Shown one piece after another: positions 16,471-25,043 of a stretch of 43,336 bases of DNA (position 1 is the first letter of the stretch; every line of letters begins with the position of its first letter). Position numbers and translations under genes: made by a program. Below the pieces are notes generated by a model, which worked only from the letters and a program-made list of their open reading frames with translations, did not search any database and was not told the DNA's origin. Source of the stretch: Alphaproteobacteria bacterium (GTDB taxonomy: Bacteria > Pseudomonadota > Alphaproteobacteria > SHVZ01); NCBI GenBank assembly GCA_016869375.1, contig VGEH01000021.1:1-43336 (forward strand). The letters run 5' to 3'.

Positions 16471-16980
16471 CTACGCGGCCCGCTCGGAGCGGCCCGTCGC
16501 CGGACGGACGGTGCCGCGAGCGAGCGCGAGCCAGCCGGGCATCAGCTCCTTCACCTGGAAATGCCCGGGCGTCACCGGGCCGGGCAGTGCGAGGCCGAGC
16601 GGATCGGCGGCGACGAAGCCGAAGGGCCTGTAGTAGGCGGGGTCGCCGGAGACAAGGCAGAGGCCGTAGCCGCTCCGCGCCGCCTCGGTCAGGCCCTTGG
16701 CGACCAGCGCCTTGCCGATGCCCTGGCCGCGCAGCGAAGGATCGACCGCGAGCGGCCCGAGCAGCACCGCGTCCGCGCCGCGGTCGAGCTCGACCGGCCA
16801 AAAGCGAAGGCTGCCGACCAAGGATCCGCGCTTGCGCGCGACCAGCGAGAGGCCGGCGAGTGGCGTGCCGAGCCGGAGCTTGTAGACGGTGCGTTCGTGC
16901 CGGTTGGCGCCGAAGGCGTGATCGAGAAGGATGTCGATGGCGGTGCCGTCTTCAGCCCGCTCGGGCTTGAGCGCGTACAT
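16471..16980 (-). CDS. GNAT-family N-acetyltransferase (YhbS-like)
   Basis: A 169-residue acetyltransferase. The acetyl-CoA pyrophosphate loop is VDPSLRGQGIGKALV at about residues 80-94, followed by the GDPAYYRPFGF motif typical of the YhbS subgroup. The ATG at 16980 (MYALKPE) is preferred to an upstream in-frame TTG at 17010. The acceptor is unknown. It lies between the CadC-like gene and the dioxygenase gene on the same strand; the 97 bases to the former hold nothing that I recognise. Confidence 0.85.
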   Translation of the reverse strand: MYALKPERAEDGTAIDILLDHAFGANRHERTVYKLRLGTPLAGLSLVARKRGSLVGSLRFWPVELDRGADAVLLGPLAVDPSLRGQGIGKALVAKGLTEAARSGYGLCLVSGDPAYYRPFGFVAADPLGLALPGPVTPGHFQVKELMPGWLALARGTVRPATGRSERAA

Positions 16981-17215
16981 GGTCCAGGTCCGTTCCAAAA
17001 CGAGAGACAAGGGAAGCCGACTAGACGCGGCATCCGCCTCGCGTTCGGGACCTCGGACGACAACGGATAGAGAGAGGCCGTGAGCGGAGACGACAGACGC
17101 CGCGCGCTAAAGCGCGTGGCCTTGTCGTCGTCGTGAAACGTTCCTGAGCGGGCTCATGGCGGCGGCAATGTGCTGAAATCCGCGTGGAATTGCAAGAGGG
17201 AAGCGATCCCGCCGC
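16981..17215. other. intergenic region with a long hairpin
   Basis: This 235-base gap lies between the GNAT start and the dioxygenase stop. A two-part hairpin occupies 17089-17129: GACGACA (17089-17095) pairs with TGTCGTC (17123-17129), and the inner GCCGCGCGCT (17099-17108) pairs with AGCGCGTGGC (17111-17120) with one G-T. It lies about 85 bases beyond the minus-strand dioxygenase stop and may end that transcript, although no U-run follows. No small gene is evident. Confidence 0.45.
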
Positions 17216-18262
17216 TCAAGCCGGCGGGAATCGGACATGAACGCGATTGAGGTAGCGCGTCATCGGATCGTCAGCCAGCGCGCAGGCGAGCTCATGCGAC
17301 GGCACGGGCTCGAACCAGTCCTCGTCGGCGTTCGCGTTCCGCAGGAGACCGTATCGCGCCCAGAACATCATGCGGTTTCCCCGCGTCGGCGGCAGGCCGC
17401 GATGAAGGCCGGTGGTGTCGGCCATGAAGCCTTCGCCGGCCGCGCCGGTGATGGTGACGATCTGGGACCCGAAAAGATGCTCGTAGAGATCGTCCAGACC
17501 GTAGCCGGCGTCCATCAGAGACTCCGCCTGGCCAGCGTCGATCCCCGGTTCGGTCGCCGCCGCCCGCCGCAGCGCCTCCCTGACGCCCTCGAGACTGTGG
17601 CTCGCGCGAATGAACTGATGCGGGCCGTCCTCGGCGCCGACATCGGTCAGATAGACGAAGAGGGTGCAGAACCGGTAGTCGTCGGCATCGCGATGGAAAG
17701 TCTGCGCGTACCGCGCCGGCTGCGGGCGGCCGCCGAAGGACCACCATCCATGCAGCGAGTAGAGCGTCGGCCAGCATCCGAGCCTGGCAGCGGCCAGCTC
17801 GACGATGTCGCGACGATTGGCCAGCGCCAGGAGATGGGGCGCACCCACGATGACTGCGCGCTGATACGCGGCGTAATGCGCCGAAGCCGCGAGATCGTCC
17901 CAGGACCTTGGCTTGCGATCGCTTTGCATCAAGGTGTGACCGTCGAATGCCGGAAACTCGCGAAGGTAGGCGAGGATGTCGGCGATCTGCGGTGTCGTCA
18001 GCAAGGGTCCGAGCTGCAGGAAACCGTCGCGATCCAGGACATCGCAAGCCGCGGGACGGGCAGGTGCCGGTCCGAGAAGCTTCGCAAGCTGGTCGACGAT
18101 GAAGCCGCCGATGTCCTGCCGGGCGGCGAAAGGCAGGAACGGGAGGGTCCGCTCGTGAACGTGACGCAGCAGCTTGAACTCGATGGTCTCTTCCACGGCT
18201 GGCGGATCCTCATGCCGCCGCCAATCCTGGAGGTCGGCCGGAACAGTGATGCGGGACGGCAA
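17216..18262 (-). CDS. PhyH-family Fe(II)/2-oxoglutarate dioxygenase
   Basis: A 348-residue protein of the phytanoyl-CoA dioxygenase family, with an N-terminal extension of about 70 residues before the DRDGFLQLGPLLT segment that starts the fold. Metal ligands are His190 and Asp192 (TFHRDADDYRF) and His287 (TTGLHRG), and Arg294 or Arg297 in PPTRGNRMMFWARYG would bind 2-oxoglutarate. It likely hydroxylates a small molecule. It is divergent from a carbamoyltransferase gene with a 134-base shared promoter region, suggesting that the two tailor the same product (hydroxylation followed by O-carbamoylation). The substrate is unknown. Confidence 0.82.
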   Translation of the reverse strand: MPSRITVPADLQDWRRHEDPPAVEETIEFKLLRHVHERTLPFLPFAARQDIGGFIVDQLAKLLGPAPARPAACDVLDRDGFLQLGPLLTTPQIADILAYLREFPAFDGHTLMQSDRKPRSWDDLAASAHYAAYQRAVIVGAPHLLALANRRDIVELAAARLGCWPTLYSLHGWWSFGGRPQPARYAQTFHRDADDYRFCTLFVYLTDVGAEDGPHQFIRASHSLEGVREALRRAAATEPGIDAGQAESLMDAGYGLDDLYEHLFGSQIVTITGAAGEGFMADTTGLHRGLPPTRGNRMMFWARYGLLRNANADEDWFEPVPSHELACALADDPMTRYLNRVHVRFPPA

Positions 18263-18286
18263 GCATACCGCAGCGGAATTCGGAGG

Positions 18287-18315
18287 TTCAGGGCCAATCG
18301 CACGACCCGTATACT
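18287..18315 (+). promoter_or_regulatory. candidate promoter for the carbamoyltransferase gene
   Basis: A -10-like TATACT at 18310-18315 is 17 bases from a weak -35 TTCAGG at 18287-18292, in the gap shared with the divergent dioxygenase. GAGGAGCTGGCGAGGC before the ATG at 18397 gives the ribosome binding site. Confidence 0.4.
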
Positions 18316-18396
18316 GCGGCGATGCCGTGCTGGCAAAGGCCCTGCGGCAGGCGCAGGCGCAGGGTTGACGACGGTACTACGAGGAGCTGGCGAGGC

Positions 18397-20586
18397 ATGG
18401 CAGAGGACGAAGCTGGGACAGCCCGGGCGGCCGACGATCCGCTGGCGGCGATCCGGGCAGCCTTCAATGTCCGACACTTCGCCGAGGCGAGCCGATTGCT
18501 GAGCGTAACGGCGGAGATGCAGCGCCGCGATCCGTCGGCGCTGCTCCTCGCGGCACGCATCGCCGTCGAGCGGTTCGACTACGACTCCGCGATCGCGCTC
18601 GCCGACGAGGCCGCGCAGCGCGGTGCGTCGCCCGCGTCCTCCTCGACCGTGCGCGCTCATGCGCTCATCGGCGCCGGCCGGCCCCTCGACGCGATGGACA
18701 GCTTCCGTGCCGTGGGCGCCGGCGGCCCCGATGCGCGCGAGGCGCGCGCCTATCTCGAGGTCGACCGGCACCGGGTCGCCTATCGAGCCTGGCTCCAGGG
18801 GCTGAACAGCACCTACAGGCCCGGAGAGGTGCAGAGCGTTCTGCCGCGCCCGACCGATGTCGAGGGACTGCGGCAATGCGTTGCTTCGCGCACGCCGCTG
18901 GACAGAGCACGGATCCTGTCGATCCACACCTGGCACGACGCGACCGTGACCATCAGCGTCGGCAGCGAGATCCGCGTCAACCTTGAGCTGGAGCGCTTCA
19001 CGCGGACCAAACGCGACTATGGCTACCGCGAGGACTTCGTTCGTTTCTGCCTGGATCGCGCCGGACTCTCGATCGATGACATCGATCTGGTCTGCCTCGA
19101 TCGACTGGGCAATGAAGTCGAAGGGGTGCCAGTCCAGCCGAATGCCGCGCATACACCCTGCGACAGACCTTCTACCCAGTGGCGCCTCCACGCCCCTTTC
19201 GAGGCCTACGTTCTCGGTCGCTGGATCCCCGCCTTGGCGGTCAACCATCACACCGCGCATGTCGCCGGCGCCTTCTTCACCTCCCCTTTCGAAGAGGCGC
19301 CGGTTCTCGTGATCGACGGCGGCGGCGACAGCCCGGGCACGGTGACCTGGGGCTACGGCAAGGGATCGGCCATCGTCATCTTCGGCCTCGAGCAGCCGAG
19401 TTCCGCCCTGGCGAAGTGGTGGCAGCACCTCACCATCGCCAATTGGCGCATGGCCCCGTTCCATCACCTCGACCCCGGCCCCGGTCCCGGCAAGGTCATG
19501 GCGCTTGCCGCTTACGGTCGCGTCGATGCGTCGAGAAACGACAGGCTGCTCGCCGCCATGCGCTTCGGCGGCCAGCGGGTCCGGATCGCCGGCGAAGGAA
19601 ACCACCTGTCGGTGAGCGCCTGGGACGGACTCCTTCTCGACGACACCGACCTCTCGGACACGCACTCGAGCGAGTCCCAGGACTGGGCACGGGCGCTGCA
19701 GGAAGTCACCAACGACGAGATCCACGAGTGCATGGTGTTTCTGCACGACCAGGTGCCTTCCGAGGTTCTCTGCTATTCGGGCGGCGTGGCGCTCAACTGC
19801 ATCGCCACGTCGGAGGCCATGCGGCGCGGACCGTTCAAGCGCATCCATGTCCCGCCGATCCCCAACGACTGCGGCACGGCCCTCGGCATGGCTCTCTACG
19901 CCTACCATGTCGGACTCGGCCAGCCGCGAACGCCGTCGCTGTTTTCGCCCTATACGGGGCCGGCCTACAGCACGAACGAGATCGATGCGGCGGTGGCGGC
20001 CTTCGCCGCCCGGGGCGGCTTCGCGGTCGAGACCTTCAGCGAAGAGGAAGCGCTGAAATCCCGTGTCGTCGAGATCCTCGCGGCCAAGGACATCCTGCTG
20101 ATGTGGCGCGGACGCAGCGAATGCGGCCCACGCGCGCTCGGCCATCGCAGCATCCTCGCCCGGCCGGACATCCCCGACATCCGCGCCAGGCTCAACAAGC
20201 ACAAGGCGCGCGAATGGTACCGGCCGTTCGCGCCGATCGTGCTTGCGGAGAAGGCGGAGCAGATCCTGAGCGACGAGCCGGCGCATGCGCACTACATGAC
20301 GACCAGCACGCTGATCCGCGAGGAGTGGCGGAGCCGGCTTCCCGGCATCCTGCACGTCGACAACAGCGCTCGTCCTCAGGTTCTCACGCGCGAGCTCGAG
20401 CCGTTCCTGCACGACGTGCTCAGCCGCCTCGACCGGCTGACCGGGATCCCGGTCATCCTGAACACCAGCTTCAACCTGAGCGAACCCATCGTCGAGACCG
20501 CGGAGCACGCGCTCGACACCTGGTGGCGGCTCGGCATCCGCCATCTCGTTCTGCACGATCGCATCCTGGTCCGGCGCGCCGCCTAG
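18397..20586 (+). CDS. NodU/CmcH-family carbamoyltransferase with N-terminal helical extension
   Basis: A 729-residue protein. Residues from about 172 are a carbamoyltransferase of the NodU/CmcH/TobZ type. They contain the opening ILSIHTWHDA, the LELERFTRTK motif, the metal and phosphate-binding NHHTAH at 283-288, and DGGGDSPGTVTWGYG near 307. The C-terminal domain has the family signature CGPRALGHRSILA and a WYRPFAPIVL segment. Such enzymes use carbamoyl phosphate and ATP to carbamoylate a hydroxyl group. Residues 1-165 are an extra helical region with TPR-like pairs (AFNVRHFAEASRLL, LLLAARIAVERFDYDSAIALADEA), not part of the usual family. The ATG at 18397 is chosen for its GAGGAG ribosome binding site over an in-frame ATG at 18322. 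It is paired with the divergent dioxygenase. Confidence 0.87.
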   Translation: MAEDEAGTARAADDPLAAIRAAFNVRHFAEASRLLSVTAEMQRRDPSALLLAARIAVERFDYDSAIALADEAAQRGASPASSSTVRAHALIGAGRPLDAMDSFRAVGAGGPDAREARAYLEVDRHRVAYRAWLQGLNSTYRPGEVQSVLPRPTDVEGLRQCVASRTPLDRARILSIHTWHDATVTISVGSEIRVNLELERFTRTKRDYGYREDFVRFCLDRAGLSIDDIDLVCLDRLGNEVEGVPVQPNAAHTPCDRPSTQWRLHAPFEAYVLGRWIPALAVNHHTAHVAGAFFTSPFEEAPVLVIDGGGDSPGTVTWGYGKGSAIVIFGLEQPSSALAKWWQHLTIANWRMAPFHHLDPGPGPGKVMALAAYGRVDASRNDRLLAAMRFGGQRVRIAGEGNHLSVSAWDGLLLDDTDLSDTHSSESQDWARALQEVTNDEIHECMVFLHDQVPSEVLCYSGGVALNCIATSEAMRRGPFKRIHVPPIPNDCGTALGMALYAYHVGLGQPRTPSLFSPYTGPAYSTNEIDAAVAAFAARGGFAVETFSEEEALKSRVVEILAAKDILLMWRGRSECGPRALGHRSILARPDIPDIRARLNKHKAREWYRPFAPIVLAEKAEQILSDEPAHAHYMTTSTLIREEWRSRLPGILHVDNSARPQVLTRELEPFLHDVLSRLDRLTGIPVILNTSFNLSEPIVETAEHALDTWWRLGIRHLVLHDRILVRRAA

Positions 20587-20605
20587 AACGCCGCCGCGCC
20601 GCGCG

Positions 20606-22018
20606 CTAGTTCGTCAGCGGACCCGAGAAGCTCTCCGGCGCGGGGTCGACGACCCGGCGCTGGCGGTCGCCGATCTCGATCACGGCGTAGCCGCGCTCGC
20701 TGCGCCCGTCGGGGAGGAAGCGGAAGAGACCGTCGACGCCGGCGAAGCCGGTCGCCTGGGTCAGCGCCTGCCGGCTGAAATCCGGGCGGGCGTCGAGCTT
20801 CGCGAGGATCGCGGCGAGCGCGACGAGATCGTAGGCCAGCGTGGCCAGCCGCGGCGGCCGGCGCTGATAGGTCTTCTCGTAGGCGGCCTCGAAATCGGCG
20901 CGCGCCTCGGGCGGCGGCGCAACGAACCAGGCGCCGCGCAAGGCCGGCTCGTTGGCGAGCGTCGGGTCGTCCCAGAGTACGGTGCCGAGGATGCGCACAT
21001 TCTTCGGATCGACGTCGTAGCTGGTGAGCAGCGGCGCCACGGTGCGCAGGCGGTCGCCGCCTTCGGGCAGCAGCAGCGCATCGAAGCCGAGATCGCCCTG
21101 GCCTTGCAGCCCTTCGAGCCGGCGCAGCGCCTGGCGCGAGACCTCGTCGGTCTTGCCTTCGTACTGCTTCTTCTCGTTAGCGAGCGCGAGCGAGCGGCGC
21201 TCGAAGTCGGCGAGCCGGCGCAACGTCGGCGCGATGTCGGTCGTGCCGGGATCGTAGGTCTCGCTCCGCGTCACCTGGGCGCGGTTGGCGCGCGCCGCCT
21301 TCTGCAGCTCGTCGGTGACGGTGTCGCCGAAGCCGCCCCGGGGCGCCAGCACGGCGAAGCGCCGCGAGCCTCCTTTGGATGCCGCATAGGCGATGACGCG
21401 CTCGACCTGAGGGCGCGGCAGGAAGCCGAAGACGAAGACATTGTCGCCGGCGACCGACTGGTCGTTGGAGAAGGTGATGACATTGACGCCGGCGGCGCGC
21501 GCGATCGGACCGACCGCCGCGGCCTCGGCGCCGAAGAGGGGTCCCAGGATCAGGCGTGCGCCCTGGCCGATCGCCTTCTCCGCCGCCGAGACCGCGCCAC
21601 CCGGCGTGCCGCCGGTATCGACGGGAAGCAGCGTGAAGCGTTCGTCGGCGGCATCGAAGAGCGCGAGCTCGGCCGCTTCCAGCATCTGCTGGCCGAGCGC
21701 CGCGTCGCGCCCGGAGAGCGGCAGCAGGATCGCGACCACCGGCAGGTCCATGCCCGGCGGCGGTGTCAACGTGACCTGCGGCGGTGGCGCCGGCGGCGTC
21801 TGGACCGGCGGCGGCAGCGCCGGCGCGGGCGCCAGCAGGGGCTGCACCGGCTGCGGACCGCTGGCGATCGGCGGGCGCGCTTGCGGGCCGCCGAACGGGT
21901 TCGCTAGGTTGCCGCCATCGGCGCATCCGGAGATGAGCAGCGCGAGTCCGGCCATCGCCCCGGCCATTGCCAGGAGCCTCCGTCCCGACCATGACCTCGT
22001 CCCGGGCTGATGCCGCAT
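20606..22018 (-). CDS. LpoA-like penicillin-binding protein activator lipoprotein
   Basis: A 470-residue lipoprotein. The basic N-terminus and hydrophobic helix end in the lipobox LLISGC. A Pro-rich linker follows at about 40-85, then a periplasmic-binding type I fold starting PVVAILLPLSGRDAALGQQMLEAAELALFD (key: ILLPLSGRDAALGQ). E. coli LpoA, which stimulates PBP1A, has this C-terminal fold and the same neighbours (divergent rsmI, yraN nearby). The start at 22018 has a perfect GGAGGT four bases upstream. The 5' end overlaps the divergent rsmI start by 28 bases, so each promoter lies in the other gene's coding region. It could instead be a Leu/Ile/Val-binding-type receptor, but the lipobox and context favour LpoA. 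Confidence 0.83.
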   Translation of the reverse strand: MRHQPGTRSWSGRRLLAMAGAMAGLALLISGCADGGNLANPFGGPQARPPIASGPQPVQPLLAPAPALPPPVQTPPAPPPQVTLTPPPGMDLPVVAILLPLSGRDAALGQQMLEAAELALFDAADERFTLLPVDTGGTPGGAVSAAEKAIGQGARLILGPLFGAEAAAVGPIARAAGVNVITFSNDQSVAGDNVFVFGFLPRPQVERVIAYAASKGGSRRFAVLAPRGGFGDTVTDELQKAARANRAQVTRSETYDPGTTDIAPTLRRLADFERRSLALANEKKQYEGKTDEVSRQALRRLEGLQGQGDLGFDALLLPEGGDRLRTVAPLLTSYDVDPKNVRILGTVLWDDPTLANEPALRGAWFVAPPPEARADFEAAYEKTYQRRPPRLATLAYDLVALAAILAKLDARPDFSRQALTQATGFAGVDGLFRFLPDGRSERGYAVIEIGDRQRRVVDPAPESFSGPLTN

Positions 22019-22914
22019 CGTCACCTCCATCTGACGCCGAGGGTAGCGAAGCCTCGCCACCCGGTAAACTCGCACGCCCGCTCGACGCCGGCCTCTATCT
22101 TGTCGCGACGCCGATCGGCAACGCCCGCGACATCACCCTGCGCGCGCTTGATGTCCTGAAGATGGCGAATGTCGTCGCCTGCGAGGATACGCGGACGACC
22201 GGAAAGCTGATGACCATCCACGGGATCAAGGCCTCGCTCCTGCCCTATCACGACCACAACGCCGAAAGGCAGCGGCCGTTGCTGCTGGCGAGGCTGGCCA
22301 AAGGCGAGGCGATCACTCTGGTCTCCGATGCCGGGACGCCGCTGGTTTCCGATCCCGGCTACAAGCTGGTGCAGGAGGCGCTCGCCGCCGGACACCGGGT
22401 CTTCCCGATCCCCGGCGCCTCGGCGACGCTGGCGGCGCTGACCGTCGCCGGCCTGCCGACCGACCGCTTCGCGTTCCTGGGCTTCGCCCCGCCGAAATCG
22501 GTGGCGCGGCGGCGCTGGCTCGGCGAGGCCAAGACGTTTCCGGGCACGCTCATCTTCTATGAATCGCCGCAGCGCCTGGCGGAGTCGCTCGCCGACGCAG
22601 GAGCCGTTCTCGGCGACCGGCCCGCCGCGGTGGCGCGCGAACTGACAAAACTGTTCGAGGAGACGCGGCGCGAGCGGCTCTCCGTGCTGGCCGCCCATTA
22701 TGGCGAGGCCGGCCCGCCCAAGGGCGAGGTGGTCATCGTGGTCGGGCCACCCGAGGAGGCGCCAGCCTCCGAAGCGGATCTCGACGCGGCGCTGAAAGAA
22801 GCGCTCGGCCGGGGCCTGAGCGTCAAGGACGCGGCGAGCGAGGTGGCGCTCCGCCTCGGCGTGCCGCGCAAAGAGGCCTACAGCCATGCGCTGGCCCTCG
22901 CCAAGGAAGAGTGA
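21991..22914 (+). CDS. rsmI: 16S rRNA (cytidine-1402 2'-O)-methyltransferase
   Basis: A 307-residue SAM-dependent methyltransferase of the tetrapyrrole-methylase fold. Signature segments are GLYLVATPIGNARDITLRAL (key: ATPIGN), ACEDTRTTGKL, VSDAGTPLVSDPGY and IPGASA. It 2'-O-methylates C1402 in the decoding centre together with RsmH. The ATG at 21991 is preferred; an in-frame TTG lies at 21967. It overlaps the divergent LpoA-like gene at its 5' end by 28 bases and the downstream yraN by 29 bases. The rsmI-lpoA-yraN cluster is widely conserved. Confidence 0.95.
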   Translation: MTSSRADAASSPPSDAEGSEASPPGKLARPLDAGLYLVATPIGNARDITLRALDVLKMANVVACEDTRTTGKLMTIHGIKASLLPYHDHNAERQRPLLLARLAKGEAITLVSDAGTPLVSDPGYKLVQEALAAGHRVFPIPGASATLAALTVAGLPTDRFAFLGFAPPKSVARRRWLGEAKTFPGTLIFYESPQRLAESLADAGAVLGDRPAAVARELTKLFEETRRERLSVLAAHYGEAGPPKGEVVIVVGPPEEAPASEADLDAALKEALGRGLSVKDAASEVALRLGVPRKEAYSHALALAKEE

Positions 22915-24249: not shown

Positions 24250-24645
24250 TCAATCCTTGTGCTGCACCGACGCGCCCGCAACCGCGACCCACTCATGCTT
24301 GCGGCGCTCGCTGACGGAATGCTTCGGTGCCGGGAAGTCGCGGTCGGCGAAGGCGCCGACGGCGACGGCGGTGACGTCGGGGAACTGGTCGAGGCGCCAA
24401 TGCACCGTGGTCCCGCAGTTCGGGCAGAAGTCGAAGGTGACCTTGAAGCCCGAGTCGGCGATGCGCGTGTATTGGCGCGACGGGCCTTCGGCCCTTACCT
24501 TCTCCTTCGGATATCGTGCGGAGACGCCGAAGACGCTGCCGGTGCGCTTCTGGCACTCCAGGCAATGGCAGACGGAGACGCGCACCGGCTCGCCTTCGCA
24601 AGAAACGCGAAGCTTGCCGCAGTCGCAGGCAGCGATGCGCGTCAT
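24250..24645 (-). CDS. GFA/CENP-V family zinc protein (copy 1)
   Basis: A 131-residue member of the glutathione-dependent formaldehyde-activating enzyme (GFA) family. Zinc-binding cysteines appear as ACDCGKLRVSC near the N-terminus, VCHCLECQKRTGS at about 25-37 and FCPNCGTTVHW at about 73-83. Its start overlaps the stop of copy 2 by four bases (ATGA), so the two are one operon. The family name is historic; formaldehyde activation is not proven for most members. The two copies are clearly paralogous and most likely came from a tandem duplication. Confidence 0.88.
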   Translation of the reverse strand: MTRIAACDCGKLRVSCEGEPVRVSVCHCLECQKRTGSVFGVSARYPKEKVRAEGPSRQYTRIADSGFKVTFDFCPNCGTTVHWRLDQFPDVTAVAVGAFADRDFPAPKHSVSERRKHEWVAVAGASVQHKD

Positions 24646-25043
24646 CCGCGGCGCTCCACCGGGACGGTGATCTCGACCCAGGCGTGGCGGCGGCTGGCAT
24701 CGTAGATCGAGCGCGACGGAACCGGCGTATAGCCGGGATCGGCGAAGGCGCCTATGGCGACGGCGATGCCGTCATTGAAGGCCGGCATCTCCCAGCACAC
24801 CGTCGAGCCGCAATGCGGGCAGAAGCGGAAGCGGATCTCGTTGCCTTCGTCGCCGATGCGGACGTACTCGCTCGCCTCGCCCTCGATGGTCACCTTCTCG
24901 CGCAGATAGCGCGCGGCGACGCCGAAGACGCTGCCGGTGCGGCGCTGGCAGGCCTGGCAGTGGCAGATCGAGACGCGCATCGGCTCGCCCTCGCAGGCGA
25001 GGCGAAGCTTGCCGCAGGCGCAGGTGGCGGCACGGATAGTCAT
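24642..25043 (-). CDS. GFA/CENP-V family zinc protein (copy 2)
   Basis: A 133-residue paralogue of the downstream gene. It has the same layout: ATCACGKLRLAC, ICHCQACQRRTGSVFGVAARYL and FCPHCGSTVCW. It also keeps the Arg-Tyr-Leu/Pro-Lys-Glu-Lys stretch of its partner (ARYLREKV versus ARYPKEKV). It is the first gene of a two-gene operon and diverges from the BON lipoprotein gene with an 86-base gap. glutathione synthetase lies 1.6 kb away, which fits a thiol-related role but does not prove one. Confidence 0.88.
   Translation of the reverse strand: MTIRAATCACGKLRLACEGEPMRVSICHCQACQRRTGSVFGVAARYLREKVTIEGEASEYVRIGDEGNEIRFRFCPHCGSTVCWEMPAFNDGIAVAIGAFADPGYTPVPSRSIYDASRRHAWVEITVPVERRG

Follow-up and report, generated by a model that had tools for sequence, protein, structure and literature searches.

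Carbamoyltransferases of the NodU/CmcH type are known mainly from the tailoring of antibiotics and Nod factors and from Pseudomonas LPS, and the substrates of AviO1 and EvdMO1, two orthosomycin 2-oxoglutarate (2OG) oxygenases, are oligosaccharide antibiotics. WapO (PA5005) of the Pseudomonas LPS core is a putative LPS heptose carbamoyltransferase (PMC8005017), and FlmG, the flagellin glycosyltransferase of Caulobacter, which combines an N-terminal TPR with a sugar-related transferase, binds flagellin through this TPR (PMC7591256). In the locus presented here, an O-carbamoyltransferase with a TPR-like N-terminal extension is encoded divergently from a PhyH-family oxygenase, and the two genes quite possibly, though still tentatively, make up a tailoring islet that was acquired horizontally and whose products modify a sugar of the cell surface. 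Like WapO, the enzyme would be a stand-alone carbamoyltransferase with a surface sugar as its assigned target; WapO differs from the present pair in being encoded within the LPS core gene cluster and without a PhyH partner. FlmG may serve by analogy as a model for the role of the TPR; only the TPR-plus-transferase design is alike, as FlmG has a GT-B domain and domain searches found none in the present carbamoyltransferase.

The following DNA has been used for the present analysis: a stretch of 43,336 nt, called the window below, from contig VGEH01000021.1 (GCA_016869375.1) of a freshwater-type alphaproteobacterium (Alphaproteobacteria bacterium, SHVZ01). The divergent arrangement described in an earlier reading of the sequence alone has been confirmed, with both open reading frames (ORFs) at the positions given there, i.e., the PhyH-family 2-oxoglutarate/Fe(II) oxygenase at 17,216-18,262 on the minus strand (348 aa from TTG 18262) and the carbamoyltransferase at 18,397-20,586 on the plus strand (729 aa from ATG 18397). 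The shared gap of 134 bases (18,263-18,396) holds for these two starts and becomes about 200 bases if the oxygenase starts at GTG 18196, which gives a protein of 326 aa. This GTG may be the true start, since relatives start near there and pLDDT of the AF2 model is below 50 for residues 1-21. Neither a sigma-70-like promoter site nor an RNA element was found in the 18,263-18,396 gap.

The plus-strand product had been assigned to the NodU/CmcH-type O-carbamoyltransferase family, and this is borne out by the two Pfam domains, by the fold, which is that of TobZ, and by four conserved TobZ residues. PF02543 (Carbam_trans_N; E 4e-33, 115.6 bits) and PF16861 (Carbam_trans_C; E 1e-50, 171.9 bits) were both matched above their curated cut-offs, and TobZ was matched both in sequence (E 4e-55) and in fold (E 5e-35). 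The Kae1-like domain (18,910-20,070, plus strand) carries H180, the HHxxH/Asp metal-site residues H284, H288 and D307, and D491, and the YrdC-like domain (20,071-20,568, plus strand) carries K603, M634 and S691. H180, K603, M634 and S691 correspond to H14, K443, M473 and S530 of TobZ, the four positions named in the titles of solved TobZ mutants (the chain index is the TobZ numbering plus 6). On the basis of this homology, the enzyme is predicted to transfer a carbamoyl group from carbamoyl phosphate and ATP to an O acceptor. The two-domain Kae1/YrdC fold is common to TobZ, GdmN, VtdB and NovN (Foldseek TM 0.8 on TobZ); the present protein differs from them in its added TPR-like module, in the absence of an antibiotic cluster, and in having only 28% identity to TobZ.

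In front of the catalytic domains, there is a coding extension of about 170 residues, in accordance with the roughly 165 extra residues with helical repeats noted previously. Structure prediction gave three TPR-like helical hairpins at residues 15-104 of 729 (18,439-18,708, plus strand), with helices at 15-24/28-37, 46-58/62-74 and 79-92/96-104 and moderate confidence (AF2 pLDDT about 50-89), and these are followed by a partly disordered linker (18,709-18,909; pLDDT below 50 at residues 121-150). The NCBIfam PrsT TPR model matched the extension with E 7e-5 and Pfam TPR_16 matched the isolated piece with E 0.004, both below cut-off, and thus the TPR assignment is weak by sequence but repeatable across models. 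Part of the linker is similar to the short N-terminal segment of L126, an alphaproteobacterial homologue, and this is suggestive only, with an alignment score of 42 against 500 shuffles (mean 25.8, sd 4.4, maximum 47). Homologue sequences with a complete N-terminal side came from class genomes, named genomes, plasmids and virus contigs and numbered 214, with overlap between some loci; no TPR was found in the other long N-terminal extensions scanned among them, and the TPR-like extension is unique in this sample. The fusions seen elsewhere are in phages, where GT9 and FkbM methyltransferase domains are attached to the carbamoyltransferase. In two virus contigs (L234 3-3275 and L256 5733-9728), the protein combines an FkbM methyltransferase with the carbamoyltransferase and is headed by a GT9-like domain, which is clear in L256 and weak in L234.

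Because the close relatives, i.e., the protein of genome G001, L124 and the phage proteins, start straight at the catalytic domain and all relatives lack a TPR, the extension might be attributed to a misread start, the protein really beginning near GTG 18829; the sequence-only reading had itself named this as an observation that would overturn its view. GC by codon position is about 0.77/0.57/0.83 in 18,397-18,912, matching the rest of the gene, and 0.48/0.80/0.80 in 18,322-18,396, so that the composition is coding from 18397 onward and the upstream ATG 18322 falls in non-coding-like DNA. In addition, a GAGGAG-like stretch precedes ATG 18397, and the TPR signal is in frame with the carbamoyltransferase. 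A misread start is therefore very improbable and was rejected on codon-position composition and the in-frame hairpins of the AF2 model.

The minus-strand product matches PF05721 (PhyH) above the gathering cut-off (E 7e-6). The residues His190, Asp192 and His287 pointed out earlier are present, as is Arg297, and all four are invariant in an eight-row alignment of relatives; the protein thus has the HxD...H iron triad, the 2OG-binding Arg and the double-stranded beta-helix of the family (AF2 model, pLDDT 81). The top Foldseek matches, and the best solved folds for this protein, are AviO1 (E 3e-12) and EvdMO1 (E 4e-10), which belong to another pathway and have only about 18% identity and TM of 0.3-0.6.

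The two genes exactly fill an islet of 3.4 kb (17,200-20,605), which is bounded by a GNAT acetyltransferase gene on the left (16,471-17,010, minus strand) and an lppC gene for an LppC/LpoA-like lipoprotein with a periplasmic-binding fold on the right (20,606-22,075, minus strand), the latter followed by RsmI-like and UPF0102 genes. Both flanks are syntenic in genomes G001, G002 and G005. The flanks of G001 align base by base up to position 17199 of the window and resume at 20606, the islet being replaced there by an unrelated intergenic sequence of about 147 bp, and in G005 the GNAT gene adjoins lppC without the DNA of the pair. In G002 (L118 5002-7034, G002:C100), the slot is occupied by genes for a DAO-type FAD oxidoreductase and a TauE/SafE exporter. 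Since the slot is empty in G001 and G005 and holds other genes in G002, the pair is regarded as variable cargo, and the GNAT-lppC slot, with its different contents here and in G002 and with nothing in two genus-mates, as a small insertion hot spot. Gain of the islet is the simpler reading of this sequence comparison than loss in the others. Neither a mobile element nor convincing flanking repeats were found at the islet ends, and codon usage of the two genes is unremarkable (z -1.2 and -0.9). A prophage origin was rejected because no phage genes were found among the window genes tested and the PhyH gene is absent from the phage collection. Elsewhere in the window (24,250-25,043, minus strand), two diverged GFA (formaldehyde-activating) genes of about 130 aa each adjoin with a 4-base overlap.

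Relatives of the carbamoyltransferase were found in collection scans with an alignment, while scans with the single protein gave no match. In a tree of 44 proteins, the enzyme belongs to a clade of 12 (support 100/99), which includes proteins of two alphaproteobacterial genomes (a MAG at 49% and G001), one Phycisphaerales MAG and marine phages. Three further carbamoyltransferases are encoded in the genome of the window, and all of them fall outside this clade. The 'Nol-like' phage proteins, such as that of Pelagibacter phage HTVC008M, are about 36-40% identical in the catalytic part but lack the extension. The HTVC008M copy is located in a glycan cassette, among genes for a glycosyltransferase, a methyltransferase, UDP-glucose dehydrogenase and a 2OG oxygenase, whereas the window genes tested show no phage genes. 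The G001 gene is flanked by a gamma-glutamyltransferase-like gene on one side and a PfkB kinase gene on the other, and by eye L124 is near antiporter-like genes and L126 follows an apparent GlgB gene. Bacterial members of the clade are thus alone in varied places, as is expected of islets.

Close relatives of the PhyH subfamily were detected in 14 of the 385 class genomes at E 1e-12. The nearest one (G003, 49%) is beside NeuA-like cytidylyltransferase, MptE/Maf-like, radical SAM-B12 and TPR genes, with a distance of 135 bp between the PhyH and TPR genes, and this same cluster, lacking PhyH, recurs at C25 of the genome studied here. The PhyH paralogue of the latter genome (C198) overlaps with a GT2 gene. 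A paralogue in G005 (L053 3-1145, G005:C391) is a TPR-PhyH fusion beside a second PhyH, an apparent CysC (adenylylsulfate kinase) and a methyltransferase, and the PhyH operon of G127 contains a TPR protein. A Sphingobium relative is within a pse (pseudaminate) operon, Azospirillum relatives adjoin glycosyltransferases, and a conserved paralogue at C38 is near carboxylase/epimerase-like genes with no obvious glycan cluster. The subfamily is found again and again near nonulosonate/Maf, pseudaminate and glycosyltransferase genes, and is repeatedly beside or fused with TPR modules.

One subfamily of this PhyH, whose members are 63-67% or more identical to each other and mostly annotated as 'hypothetical protein', was found at L289 7533-8498, L290 7545-8519 and L301 5968-6933 and on about 30 rhizobial and Agrobacterium plasmids. 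On symbiosis plasmids it is near nodD2, a nodM-like glmS, or nifHDK with a LysR gene, and it also occurs on Agrobacterium plasmids, apart from genes of these kinds. It is a possible uncharacterised symbiosis-linked glycan oxygenase.

The proposal in the earlier reading had been made dependent on the two genes co-occurring in relatives, and this they do not do. In addition to the empty site in G001 and G005, no second case of neighbouring close carbamoyltransferase and close PhyH genes was found in the 385 class genomes (E 1e-50 and 1e-12, respectively), and a conserved functional pair was rejected as tested. The two genes may therefore be unrelated neighbours in a common insertion slot, with different target molecules and an accidental adjacency. 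This is consistent with the variable slot, occupied by DAO and TauE genes in G002, and with the nearest relatives of the two proteins being in different genomes (G001 for the carbamoyltransferase and G003 for PhyH). Furthermore, in 32 bacterial genomes that encode related carbamoyltransferases, no PhyH gene was found on the same short stretch in a family search by contig numbers, which were matched to names by order as an assumption; this search is preferred to testing adjacency by tblastn from three PhyH seeds, which gave no match and has little sensitivity for distant PhyH. Because the genus is rich in PhyH, a neighbour by chance would not be very rare, and a rough estimate is about 3% (4 carbamoyltransferases x 2 sides x 19/4700 genes); G001 (VGEN01) has 19 PhyH-family genes in 4.9 Mb, the most among 42 genomes or records searched. 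Against an accidental adjacency, the two genes fill one islet exactly and diverge from a short common gap, and both families separately point to glycan contexts and TPR partners, so we judge it unlikely, while giving it real weight. A surface-sugar cluster of Azospirillum lipoferum contains an adjacent carbamoyltransferase and PhyH, both from other subfamilies (E 0.065 for the PhyH), showing that the functional combination recurs, though not this pair.

Another explanation is that of the sequence-only reading, in which the pair tailors a small molecule, a diffusible natural product being hydroxylated and then carbamoylated. The best solved relatives of both enzymes come from antibiotic pathways (TobZ, GdmN, VtdB and NovN; AviO1, EvdMO1, SnoN and GriE), but solved structures are biased to antibiotic enzymes, and relatives of the pair are found in glycan clusters and phage sugar cassettes. 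No scaffold-making genes are nearby: among 25 window genes scanned with Pfam, no NRPS/PKS gene was found, as noted earlier, and no glycan cluster. We consider this explanation improbable. The pair thus stands alone, as had been stated; for its product, described then as unknown, the contexts of the relatives narrow the choice to a surface glycan.

For the surface-glycan islet, the following mechanism may be considered. By homology with TobZ, the YrdC-like domain would make carbamoyl-adenylate from carbamoyl phosphate and ATP, and the Kae1-like domain would pass the carbamoyl group to a sugar hydroxyl. The PhyH enzyme would hydroxylate the same glycan class, most likely a nonulosonate or O-antigen-type sugar. 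It is possible that the hydroxyl made by PhyH is the one carbamoylated; conservation gives no support to this, and such a hydroxyl is not required because sugars already have hydroxyls. The TPR would dock a protein partner, either a glycosyltransferase or a glycan-carrying protein such as flagellin, and its putative binding of an acceptor protein is proposed by analogy with Caulobacter FlmG. Several observations speak against the surface-glycan reading: no glycan gene was found beside the pair among the window genes tested, the carbamoyltransferase genes of the closest bacterial relatives have unrelated neighbours, the TPR match is weak by sequence, the C38 paralogue of PhyH has no obvious glycan cluster around it, and the PhyH next to a carbamoyltransferase in Azospirillum belongs to a different subfamily. 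Candidate substrates exist in the organism, since the genome encodes flagellins, two NeuB, and one further carbamoyltransferase within a NeuB cluster, and the target could possibly be a flagellin glycan.

A bolder proposal is that this is a first substrate-docking carbamoyltransferase, whose TPR brings a (glyco)protein such as flagellin so that a PhyH-hydroxylated glycan is O-carbamoylated in place, and that PhyH, TPR and carbamoyltransferase are swappable modules of a mobile flagellin-/surface-glycan kit in this bacterial family. We regard this proposal as a long shot, distinctly improbable as it stands. The link between marine phages and bacteria in the carbamoyltransferase clade suggests that sugar-decorating genes move between phages and hosts. 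If the protein-docking carbamoyltransferase is true, carbamoylation would be extended to (glyco)protein targets, and a new modification of the cell surface could be approached in a way that is open to testing.
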